Source: Halocynthiibacter sp. SDUM655004 (lineage in GTDB: Bacteria; Pseudomonadota; Alphaproteobacteria; Rhodobacterales; Rhodobacteraceae). Taken from it: a stretch of DNA of 64,000 nucleotides. Positions 10,922 through 34,681 of this stretch are shown piece by piece. A model generated the notes under the pieces. It saw nothing but the letters and a program-made list of their open reading frames with translations, ran no database searches and was not told the origin of the DNA. The DNA is taken from NCBI RefSeq assembly GCF_026015885.1, contig NZ_JAPDUG010000001.1, forward strand, positions 1,426,001-1,490,000, read 5' to 3'. The translations under genes were made by a program, and so were the position numbers. Position 1 is the stretch's first letter. The number at the start of each line of letters is the position of its first letter.

Positions 10922-11154
10922 GTCACAAGTCCGTTGTTTTTAATCGCAGGCAGCATTTCCGTAAGCAGACACAGAAATTGCGACATTCAAGTATTTGATC
11001 TGATTGTGAATACCGGGCGAGGGAGACACGTGAGATCGGTCGTATGTTCGTTGCTGACAAGTTTGACGCAGCATTCCGGCAATCCCAAAAGGAAAATGTC
11101 GGAAAAGGACAATTCAGCGCGAGTTATCCACAACCGTGACACGAAGGACGCGAA

Positions 11155-12036
11155 CTAAACGGGAACATAGGGGTGCCAGTGTTTCATCTTGCTTCGGAAC
11201 CATGTGCGTTGGCGCTTGGCATATTGGCGACTGGCAATGATCGCGGCTTCGATGGCCTCATCCAACGTGTGTTCGCCGCGCAGGTAACCAATCAACTCCG
11301 GCGCGCCAATGGCCTTGCTAGAAAGGTAGTTCGGATCGAAGGTTGGCTCCATTGCGCGGGCCTCATCCAAAGCGCCTTGTTCAATCATTAGGTGAAAGCG
11401 CCGCTCGATTCGGTCGTTGAGCCAGTCTTTCTCTGCCTGCATTACAATTGGAGCCGCCGCTTCAAGCGGCAGGAGCGGCGGCGGCGTATCGTCCTGCCAC
11501 GCGGCCAACCCACGACCCGTTGCGGTTAACACTTCCCAAGCGCGCTGAACACGCATGGGGTTTAGCGTATCGATGCGGCTTGCGGTTTCGGCGTCGATCT
11601 CTGCCAAAAGCGCCTCAAACCCTTCGGCGTTTTTGCGGGTATCCGCCAATTGCCTCACTTCGGCTGGAGTTTCCGGTATTTCCACAAGCCCTTGAGTGAG
11701 GGCCTGAAAATACAGGCCTGTGCCACCAACAATGATCGGCCGATCATTCCCCGTTCCTTGCAAAAAGGGCGTCACATCGCGCAACCAATGGCCAACGGAA
11801 TAGTTCGCGTCAAATGGCACATGCCCATAGAGGTAGTGCTGCGCTTTGGCGAGGTCTTCGGCGGGAGGGCGAGCGGTCAGGATGTTCCAACCATCAAAAA
11901 CCTGAAGCGCATCGGCGTTCACAATGACGCCGCCGTGACGCTCTGCAATCTCAAGGGCCAGCGCCGATTTACCCGAGGCCGTCGGACCGGCAATCAACAC
12001 CGGTTTGTCAGCGGGAATTTCGGGAAGGGCCTGCAT
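11155..12036 (-). CDS. miaA: tRNA dimethylallyltransferase
   Basis: Transfers a dimethylallyl group from DMAPP to N6 of A37 in tRNAs reading UNN codons. The P-loop [16 protein letters not shown] is at residues 16-31, the segment [13 protein letters not shown] follows, and [13 protein letters not shown] is clear. The C-terminal part has the [14 protein letters not shown] and [12 protein letters not shown] motifs. The length is 293 residues, normal for the family. The ATG at 12036 starts [11 protein letters not shown] with AAGG upstream; an open frame to 12186 adds 50 unrelated residues that overlap pyrH. It is divergent from pyrH. Its isoprenoid donor is a product of the pathway that includes dxr in this same window. 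Confidence 0.95.
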
Positions 12037-26829: not shown

Positions 26830-31058
<4,229 letters not shown>

Positions 31059-31097
31059 CGCAAATCTCTCTTTGGCAGTGCCGTTTTGTTCACAAAT

Positions 31098-31112
31098 GTT
31101 CTCAAAAAGTTC
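31098..31112 (+). promoter_or_regulatory. LexA-like site (GTTC-N7-GTTC) before the 40-residue gene
   Basis: GTTC-TCAAAAA-GTTC matches the GTTCN7GTTC form of SOS box known for Rhodobacter and Caulobacter LexA. A further GTTC lies at 31088. The left part, TGTTCTCA (31097-31104), also forms an eight-base inverted repeat with TGAGAACA (31133-31140), and TTTACG-AAG-CGTAAA lies between. The site is 56 bases before the small gene start, a sensible operator position. LexA binding is inferred. Confidence 0.5.
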
Positions 31113-31167
31113 TTTACGAAGCGTAAATAATATGAGAACAAAGTGTAAACAAAGATGGGAGAGAAAG

Positions 31168-31290
31168 ATGATTAAGGAAGTTCGCAGCGTTATCTCACGA
31201 TCATCCGGAACATTGGTTCAGGATTTCATCGGACTTACAGCACTGGTTGTAATTTTGATGGCATCATTGTTCCTGCCCGTTTTTGCCTAG
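31168..31290 (+). CDS. Small single-span membrane protein, 40 residues, possibly SOS-controlled
   Basis: An ATG at 31168 with GGGAGAG upstream opens a 40-codon frame: MIKEVRSVISRSSGTLVQDF, then a hydrophobic helix to the C-terminus (IGLTALVVILMASLFLPVFA). The N-terminal half is basic and the helix ends the protein, so it should sit in the inner membrane with the N-terminus inside. A LexA-like site precedes it and a strong terminator follows, so it has the layout of an independent one-gene transcript. In Caulobacter the SOS-induced division inhibitor SidA is a 29-residue inner-membrane peptide; the parallel is one of size and regulation only, with no sequence similarity claimed. Function unknown. 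Confidence 0.65.
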   Translation: MIKEVRSVISRSSGTLVQDFIGLTALVVILMASLFLPVFA

Positions 31291-31416: not shown

Positions 31417-31451
31417 TGCCGCCACCTGTCCCGAGGTGGCGGCATTTTTTT
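31417..31451 (+). terminator. Rho-independent terminator after the 40-residue gene
   Basis: GCCGCCACCT pairs perfectly with AGGTGGCGGC over a six-base loop GTCCCG, followed by ATTTTTTTAT. It ends the small-gene transcript and overlaps the stop of the convergent chemoreceptor gene at 31450. Confidence 0.9.
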
Positions 31452-32856
31452 ATCCGCGATAGGCAAGGCGTAGCCCGCCCCAATGTTCACCATTGATGAT
31501 GATCGGCGCGGATAGGTCTTTCATAAGAACAAACTCACCACCGCCCATTTCTCTACGATAGACTTGGAGCAGGAATGGTTCAGTGTTTCTTCCGGATTTC
31601 AAACCGACGCGGTCGTCAAAGACTCTACGATTTCGGCAGTTCGCCATATTCCAGACAGGGTCAGCAGATTGAGGATGTGAAAACTTCTTATTGTGGGTCG
31701 GAAGATATCCGTTCTGATCTACGCAGGCACAGAAGACGACTTTATCTGAGAAGCTGAGTGCTTCTTCCTGAATTGCAGGAAGAATGTTGTCCATGAAATG
31801 TGTGAATGGTGCGAGGAGTTGTTGCGGATCGGTGTTCGGGATTGCGCTGTAATTGCGAGAGAACAGTTCTGAATGGCTTATCTCTCCATTGTGCAGCCCT
31901 TTCTCAATACGCGCGTTTATTTTCGCTGCTGTCGCCTTAACAAAGTCAATGAACTCCCGGTCGTCGGTTGCGCCACCAAGTTCAGTCGAAAGTTGAACCA
32001 TGGTTTCGGACCGGTCGATCAGGCCATGTACTCGGCCACGGGTGTCGTGGATCCCATGGGCTGTTTCTTCGATGGTTTGGCCGATGTTTTGAAATCCAGG
32101 AATGAAAGCCGCACCTGCGTCGCGCACAGCGCTTGCGTGGGTAGCGATTTTTTCAGCCTGTTGATGCGTTGCTTTGACGGATTCAAATATCCCAGAGAGC
32201 GTCGAGTCCGTATTGGCGGCCTCGGCAATGACATCACTTGCTGTGCCCGAAACCTCAGCGGCTTCTGACTTCAGCGCCCCGACGGAACCGGAGAGCGCCG
32301 TGATGTTCTCTGATATTTCTTCGGCAGCGCGCGCAGTTTTGCGCGACAACTCGTTTATGGCCTCCGCAACAACAGCGAAGCCACGCCCGGATTCGCCCGC
32401 GCGGGCGGCTTCGATCTTGGCGTTGATGGCGAGGATGTTCACCTGACTGGCGATCTGGGCGATTTCGTCGTTGTTTTCCTGCACGGCAGTCAGGGTATTC
32501 TCAACCGAGGTCATGCGACGATCAATGTCCTGTACCCAGTGTGCAACCGATTGGGTTTGTTCGTTCGCGATGCGAAGATCTTTCATCGAAGTTTCAACAT
32601 CGGCGATCATCTGGGAGGTGGAGTTGGAAACGGTTTCCACAGCCGAGCTGACGGCGGTGTTGGCTTCCTGAACGCGCGCGGCGCCGGATCGAACTTGGTT
32701 AAGTGCCGCGAGTTGTTCTTTCGACTTTTCGTCAATCTGGTCAAGAAATCCCGCAATATCGACGATTTCAAACCCAAGGCCCGAAGCGCATTCGGCAATC
32801 TGGCTGAGCCGCGCGTCTGCGGGCATGGAATCGGTGAAATCTGGCGCAGGTATCAT
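31450..32856 (-). CDS. Soluble methyl-accepting chemotaxis-type protein
   Basis: A 468-residue receptor without membrane helices or HAMP domain. The MCP signalling hairpin covers about residues 60-270; the conserved tip reads [20 protein letters not shown] followed by [18 protein letters not shown], the usual CheA/CheW contact. The C-terminal 150 residues form a separate region with [44 protein letters not shown] and [15 protein letters not shown], which looks like a sensory domain placed after, not before, the hairpin. Several Cys could bind metal or sense redox state. The ATG at 32856 follows GAGGGAG; a TTG at 32895 is less likely. No che gene lies nearby, so its partners are elsewhere. Confidence 0.85.
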
Positions 32857-32910
32857 TGGCGGCTCCCTCTCAAGTTGGGCCAGTGTTACCGCCAATTGCT
32901 TGCGTAAGTG

Positions 32911-33835: not shown

Positions 33836-34681
33836 TTAAAGCCCGACCATGGTGCGAATGTCGGCGGGTGTAGCGCCTTCGGCTCGGTATTTGGCAATGG
33901 CGCGGGCGTCGTCGCGTTTGGCGAGGCGTTTACCAGCGTCATCACGAATTAAACGGTGGTGGTGATACTCGGGTGTCGGCAAACCGAGCAAATGTTGCAA
34001 CAAAACATGGATTTGCGTGGCTTCGGCAAGGTCGGCGCCACGCACGACATGGGTGATTTCTTGTGCCGCGTCATCAAGCACCACAGAAAGGTGATAAGAC
34101 GTTCCCATATCCCGCCGTGCCAAAACGATGTCGCCAACGGTTTCCGGCAACCTTGCTGTGTCTAGGCGGATTTCCTGCCGAGTTCCGCCACCTGTTTCGT
34201 AATAAACGAGTTCACCTTGCTCAAGAAACGTAACGGTTTTCGTCATATCAAGGCGCAGCGCGTCGTTCTCTTTGCGCTCTGAAAATTCACGGCCGCGGCA
34301 GGTTCCAGGATAGATCAGTCCATCGGGTCCAAACATCGGAGCGCCTTCCTGTGGAGCGGAGGCGGCCTGCTTAATGTCTTGGCGAGTACAGGAACAGGGG
34401 TAGAGCAACCCTAGATCGGCCAGACGGTTCAAACCGTCCTTATACGTGGCGAGATTGTCCGATTGCCGCAAAACGGGCAGGGGCCAGCTTAGACCAAGCC
34501 ACGCCAGATCGTCGTAAATCTGCTGCTCCCATTCGGGTTTGGCGCGGGACTGGTCAATGTCTTCAATGCGAAGCAGAAAGGTTCCGCCCGCCGCCTGTAC
34601 CATGTCAAATGCACAAAGTGCCGAGAACGCATGGCCAAGGTGCAGTGGGCCAGTTGGCGAGGGGGCGAAACGGGTTATCAT
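33836..34681 (-). CDS. gluQRS: Glutamyl-queuosine tRNA(Asp) synthetase
   Basis: Attaches glutamate to the queuosine base at position 34 of tRNA-Asp. It resembles the catalytic half of glutamyl-tRNA synthetase but lacks an anticodon-binding domain, as expected at 281 residues. The HIGH-like motif is in RFAPSPTGPLHLGHAFSAL, the KMSKS-like motif is KRLAKRDDA, and the zinc ligands are in YPCSCTRQDI and PGTCRGRE. The ATG at 34681 starts MITRFAPSP; the open frame to 34972 is an artefact. The start overlaps the stop of the Pmp3-like gene by four bases. Confidence 0.94.
   Translation of the reverse strand: MITRFAPSPTGPLHLGHAFSALCAFDMVQAAGGTFLLRIEDIDQSRAKPEWEQQIYDDLAWLGLSWPLPVLRQSDNLATYKDGLNRLADLGLLYPCSCTRQDIKQAASAPQEGAPMFGPDGLIYPGTCRGREFSERKENDALRLDMTKTVTFLEQGELVYYETGGGTRQEIRLDTARLPETVGDIVLARRDMGTSYHLSVVLDDAAQEITHVVRGADLAEATQIHVLLQHLLGLPTPEYHHHRLIRDDAGKRLAKRDDARAIAKYRAEGATPADIRTMVGL

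Follow-up and report, generated by a model that had tools for sequence, protein, structure and literature searches.

A recG-linked small membrane peptide of Rhodobacteraceae with a conserved, predicted two-box LexA operator

We analysed a stretch of 64,000 nucleotides from Halocynthiibacter sp. SDUM655004 (hereafter the window, to which all coordinates refer), focusing on the region that follows recG. In the ORF listing this context gene spans 28968-31058 on the forward strand, and in the loci examined the peptide gene comes next. On the same strand, beyond the end of recG, lie an additional, third GTTC half-site (31088-31091; GTTC is found here in 96 of 116 loci) and, after six further bases, a first predicted LexA-type box, GTTC-TCAAAAA-GTTC (GTTCTCAAAAAGTTC, 31098-31112), which was located by motif scan and is backed by conservation and by a matrix of lexA and recA boxes. 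It is followed by a probable −35 region, TTTACg (31113-31118, forward strand; TTTAC at 31113-31117), by TGAGAAC at 31133-31139, and by a second predicted box, GAAC-N7-AAAC, which is opposed to the first on the reverse strand (31136-31150) and is likewise assigned from the letters, conservation and the matrix. A ribosome-binding sequence, GGGAGAG (31157-31163, forward strand), corresponds to a purine-rich GGAGG-like block that relatives carry 8-12 nt ahead of their start codons, and precedes an ORF at 31168-31290 on the forward strand (ATG at 31168, TAG at 31288-31290) that encodes a 40-residue single-helix membrane peptide, MIKEVRSVISRSSGTLVQDFIGLTALVVILMASLFLPVFA, supported by homologues, codon conservation and an AlphaFold2 model. 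An intrinsic terminator-like hairpin of 11 pairs followed by seven T residues was found by hairpin scan at 31417-31444 (forward strand). The earlier note on this DNA had described a GTTC-N7-GTTC motif, an eight-base inverted repeat, a good ribosome binding site, a one-helix peptide and a strong terminator, all of which we recover, with the correction that the terminator lies outside the interval 31088-31290 to which it had been assigned. The second box, the extra half-site and the extent of conservation across the locus go beyond that description. Downstream, the convergent neighbour at 31450-32895 (reverse strand) encodes an MCP-like protein that adjoins the locus in several relatives too; since it is convergent, the small peptide gene stands alone.

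Homologues of the peptide are widespread within the family. A profile matches 132 of 149 Rhodobacteraceae genomes, sampled at one genome per genus, and a single-sequence search likewise recovers homologues in most of the same-family genomes sampled. In nearly all loci read their length is 39-40 residues, and they follow recG directly wherever recG could be identified; the gene occupies this same place 3′ of recG wherever its position was checked. When the recG ends of genomes missed or barely matched by the profile were re-examined, most were found to keep the paired GTTC/GAAC boxes together with a diverged hydrophobic ORF of 34-43 codons, often with a canonical GAAC-N7-GAAC second box. The unit seems absent from four genomes (G133, G078, G017 and G009; loci L367, L372, L373 and L370), in which recG is present and is followed by neither the operator nor a small hydrophobic ORF. 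Within the alignment of homologues the majority base is kept at 78%, 66% and 54% of codon positions 2, 1 and 3, respectively, and dN/dS falls below 1 in close pairs (median 0.56, down to 0.16 among Ruegeria); the frame therefore shows the pattern expected of coding DNA under moderate purifying selection and, on these comparative grounds, the 40-codon ORF at 31168-31290 is a real gene. Outside the family the profile found nothing: among 289 genomes sampled across the class, four same-family genomes match and none of the approximately 285 from the rest of the class does. No convincing match was obtained in Pfam, NCBIfam, PHROGs or PDB sequences, and the peptide family was not found in the protein libraries or the literature searched, though it may have been mentioned earlier elsewhere. 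An origin from phage or plasmid was considered and rejected, as the peptide is absent from the phage and plasmid records searched and from PHROGs, and the operator pattern has no match in the viral contigs of IMG/VR.

The most conserved part of the locus is the operator, which is conserved more strongly than the peptide itself. Across 107 to 126 loci it reads GTTC-N6-GTTC-N7-GTTC-TT(T/G)AC-N15-TGA-GAAC-N7-(C/G/T/A)AAC, and its information averages 1.22 bits per base; upstream of it the mean is 0.18, and both within the N15 spacer and on the 3′ side of the stop codon it is 0.13. Its spacing is rigid: a GTTC stands 11 nt ahead of the third GTTC of this pattern in 115 of 116 loci, and the distance from GTTC to GAAC is exactly 27 in 107 of 116. 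The second tetramer of box 2 is CAAC in 94 of the relatives' loci, GAAC in 9, TAAC in 6 and AAAC in 5. The earlier note had set out beforehand, as one of the tests of its reading, an alignment of relatives for joint conservation of box and peptide. That check came out in the note's favour: 119 of 126 loci have an exact GTTCN7GTTC in the 250 nt ahead of the peptide. It is this joint conservation, and not the number of motif occurrences, that makes the motif at the locus significant. The bare GTTCN7GTTC was rejected as evidence in its own right, as its counts do not rise above chance, either in the window (4, against 2.3 expected) or in the genome (116, against 156 for a backwards-read control).

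Searching with the operator instead of the peptide leads back to the same loci. The pattern GTTCTTTAC-N15-TGAGAACA, with no more than two mismatches allowed, is present in 110 of the 149 genomes, typically once in each, and a longer operator-only pattern run over public genomes matched at least 119 stretches; among the matches listed, all titles denote Rhodobacterales or unclassified alphaproteobacterial or pseudomonadotal bins. In the 80 of these operator-only loci that were read, recG lies immediately upstream on the same strand in every case and the peptide lies downstream in 78; of the two exceptions, one is truncated where the locus ends, and L309 (Paracoccus amoyensis) has a diverged short ORF. 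Across the sequences compared, operator and peptide are inseparable. We also considered whether the eight-base inverted repeat, TGTTCTCA (31097-31104) and TGAGAACA (31133-31140), forms an RNA hairpin, and rejected this reading: changes in the left arm (TGTTCTCA or TGTTCTTA) are not compensated in the right arm, which never varies. The symmetry follows from each arm being a LexA-type half-site.

The identity of the regulator was assessed by comparison with the lexA and recA promoters of the same bacteria, the genome itself encoding both genes, each with its own box. The consensus GTTCN7GTTC is that of LexA in Caulobacter, where approximately 97% of SOS promoters contain only one box (PMC12700426). 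In these bacteria the lexA promoters carry GAACACnnnTAGAAC, and the recA promoters of the same genomes carry GAGAACAAGAGGCGAACA after an upstream TGTTCTC, to which the arrangement at the peptide gene, GAGAACAAAGnGGCAACA after TGTTCTC, bears a close likeness. Under a matrix trained only on 34 lexA and recA boxes of relatives, boxes 1 and 2 rank second and third among all sites in the 64-kb window, and box 2 is the window's best recA-type site. Over the family, 120 and 115 of 126 loci in the two orientations exceed the 1e-4 background level under this matrix, compared with 3 of 126 downstream controls. Cross-scoring points the same way: with the lexA matrix, box 1 of the peptide gene has a median of 11.3 against 8.1 for recA sites, and with the recA matrix, box 2 scores 16.7 against 13.4 for lexA sites. 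Under the lexA-trained matrix box 2 scores a low 1.5, so it is less secure than box 1 as a complete LexA site; also on the negative side, its second tetramer is CAAC instead of GAAC in most relatives. The site with the best lexA and recA matrix score in the window (34388-34410, GGAACAGGGGTAGAGCAAC) lies inside a glutamyl-tRNA-synthetase-like ORF, has no full second GAAC and is probably a chance occurrence. The fourth-best site is a GAACTAAACGGGAAC box at 11152-11166, at the 3′ end of a miaA-like gene, where no obvious promoter target is seen.

A different protein that recognises GTTC half-sites, for example a response regulator that binds direct repeats with 10/11-bp spacing ahead of a weak −35, could in principle place the gene outside the SOS response. 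A sub-optimal −35 is indeed closely preceded by three GTTC repeats spaced 10 and 11 bp apart. The invariant blocks AAAGTTCTTTAC and TGAGAACAAA also extend past the LexA box, which counts against a plain LexA site; a different DNA-binding protein or special requirements of the promoter could account for them. We nevertheless consider another regulator very unlikely, as the fit of the boxes to the independent lexA and recA matrices is as good as that of recA and lexA sites to each other's, and as diverged members of the family drift towards canonical GAAC-N7-GAAC and towards the lexA-like TTGAC...GAAC-N7-TAGAAC. The one specific candidate considered, the Caulobacter activator DriD, which controls DidA at ATACGAC-N7-GTCGTAT (PMC12340889), was rejected on reading 31040-31167, where this consensus is missing. 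The fit of the boxes to the matrices, together with the absence of the DriD consensus, makes control of the peptide gene by LexA very likely, and we infer that LexA binds here and that DNA damage induces the gene. The recA promoters of Rhodobacteraceae (loci L222-L239) show a two-part layout of their own, TGTTCTC ... GAGAACAAGAGGCGAACA, and the paired arrangement may thus extend to the family's strongly controlled SOS promoters more generally.

The promoter that these boxes would control is atypical. A promoter scan found no standard −35/−10 pair. TTTAC is present in most relatives and is replaced by TTGAC-like sequences in others, and these TTG variants suggest that it is the probable −35 element. 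The −10 candidates, GAGAAC and GAACAA, both overlap box 2, and neither is assigned with confidence; the −10 is a poor one and stands at an unusual distance from TTTAC. The leader is short, with 25-74 nt from the GAAC of box 2 to the start codon in the relatives' loci.

The peptide itself has the features of a small single-helix membrane protein, as judged by hydropathy (averaging 2.33 over residues 20-36), charge (a net of about +1 over residues 1-18) and an AlphaFold2 model consisting of one helix from residue 2 to 39 (mean pLDDT 84). Among the 104 forty-residue members Asp19 and Gly22 are invariant, and Leu34 (103/104) and Pro37 (97/104) nearly so. The peptide would enter the inner membrane with its positive N-terminus inside, a helix from about residue 19 to 38 and almost nothing outside, and a conserved face formed by Asp19, Gly22, a small residue at 25, Leu26, Leu30, Gly/Ala33, Leu34 and Pro37 would most likely bind a membrane partner.

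Size, single helix and a very tight-looking LexA-type operator are also what a TisB/DinQ-like membrane toxin or dormancy peptide would present; such a product would be LexA-repressed and would depolarise the membrane after damage, with an RNA antitoxin limiting its toxicity. TisB and DinQ of Escherichia coli are SOS-induced single-helix membrane peptides of similar length, and a toxic product would suit the two boxes. Those systems, however, are paired with RNA antitoxins, and TisB has a long regulatory leader as well; neither feature is evident here. The leader, at 25-74 nt, is short. An Rfam search gave no match indicating an antitoxin RNA, and no flanking block is conserved, the operator being the only conserved non-coding block (0.13 bits per base 3′ of the stop), although such an RNA might lie inside the coding region. 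The invariant Asp19 and Gly22 and near-invariant Leu34 and Pro37 likewise point towards a specific partner and away from unspecific pore formation. We regard a peptide of this type as unlikely.

Further parallels are found among SOS-controlled and damage-checkpoint proteins that act on cell division. Like SidA of Caulobacter crescentus, the Rhodobacteraceae peptide is a tiny single-helix membrane protein of an alphaproteobacterium, encoded by a separate small gene with a GTTCN7GTTC LexA box. SidA has 29 residues, compared with 40 here. Unlike sidA, the peptide gene is fixed next to recG and has two boxes plus a half-site, and its role in division is proposed by analogy. The earlier note had taken the peptide to be unrelated in sequence to SidA. 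In its sample of genomes the class-wide profile search detected no relative outside the family, and profile and database searches gave no match tying the peptide's sequence to SidA, DidA or another known inhibitor of division. DidA of Caulobacter, another small single-helix membrane protein, serves a DNA-damage checkpoint; the promoter studied here differs in having LexA-type boxes in place of a DriD site. YneA of Bacillus and SosA of Staphylococcus are LexA-regulated single-helix membrane proteins that stop division via septal peptidoglycan synthesis. They come from different phyla and carry extracytoplasmic domains, whereas the Rhodobacteraceae peptide has almost nothing outside the membrane. 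We suggest that the peptide works like these known LexA-controlled small membrane inhibitors, and claim no membership of their families.

SidA acts on FtsW/FtsI/FtsN (PMC4211646), and sidA causes the filamentation of a Caulobacter lexA deletion (PMC12700426); by analogy, the divisome would be the likeliest target of the peptide. A LexA-controlled peptide could instead act on some other membrane process, such as an inner-membrane sensor, a protease, a transporter or DNA uptake. LexA control is supported, yet the sequence names no target and has no family matches, which leaves room for such a role; the well-studied SOS single-helix peptides SidA, YneA and SosA act on division, and we think a target outside division improbable.

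Taken with its conserved operator, the peptide is best explained as a damage-induced, tightly repressed membrane effector, most likely a SidA-like division inhibitor with no detected relation to SidA, an account to which we give somewhat better than even chances. LexA would shut the promoter through two opposed GTTC-type boxes, box 1 over the probable −35 and box 2 over the start-site region, with the extra half-site probably helping repression. RecA on single-stranded DNA would trigger self-cleavage of LexA and so release the gene, and the peptide would hold back septation until repair is complete, in the manner of Caulobacter SidA. Two boxes and a half-site, where a single box is usual, suggest that leaky expression is harmful, and the peptide is probably made only after DNA damage. 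The joint conservation of box and peptide and the lexA/recA-like scores support the earlier proposal of a LexA-controlled small membrane effector in Rhodobacterales; that the locus is a one-gene SOS unit whose product inhibits division, taken as a whole, seems to us modestly favoured. A broader proposal, to which we would give slightly less than an even chance, is that the peptide represents a family-wide DNA-damage checkpoint protein of Rhodobacterales: an undescribed family, independent of SidA, locked to recG throughout the history of the group and governed by a bipartite, rigidly spaced LexA operator that works unlike single-box SOS promoters.

Rhodobacterales, one of the most abundant groups of bacteria in the sea, include laboratory models such as Rhodobacter and Dinoroseobacter, in which LexA feeds into gene-transfer-agent production and the cell cycle. 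In the literature searched we found no damage-induced division inhibitor of this order. The kind of system proposed here, a LexA-controlled small membrane inhibitor, is known; the protein family is absent from the libraries searched, and the operator is unusual. The conserved operator offers a way to examine how direct-repeat boxes are recognised by LexA and why one SOS promoter would need two of them, and the locus offers a single, easily deleted candidate for a damage-induced division inhibitor in Rhodobacterales, its peptide being the best candidate for the missing damage-triggered division brake of the Rhodobacter/Roseobacter family.
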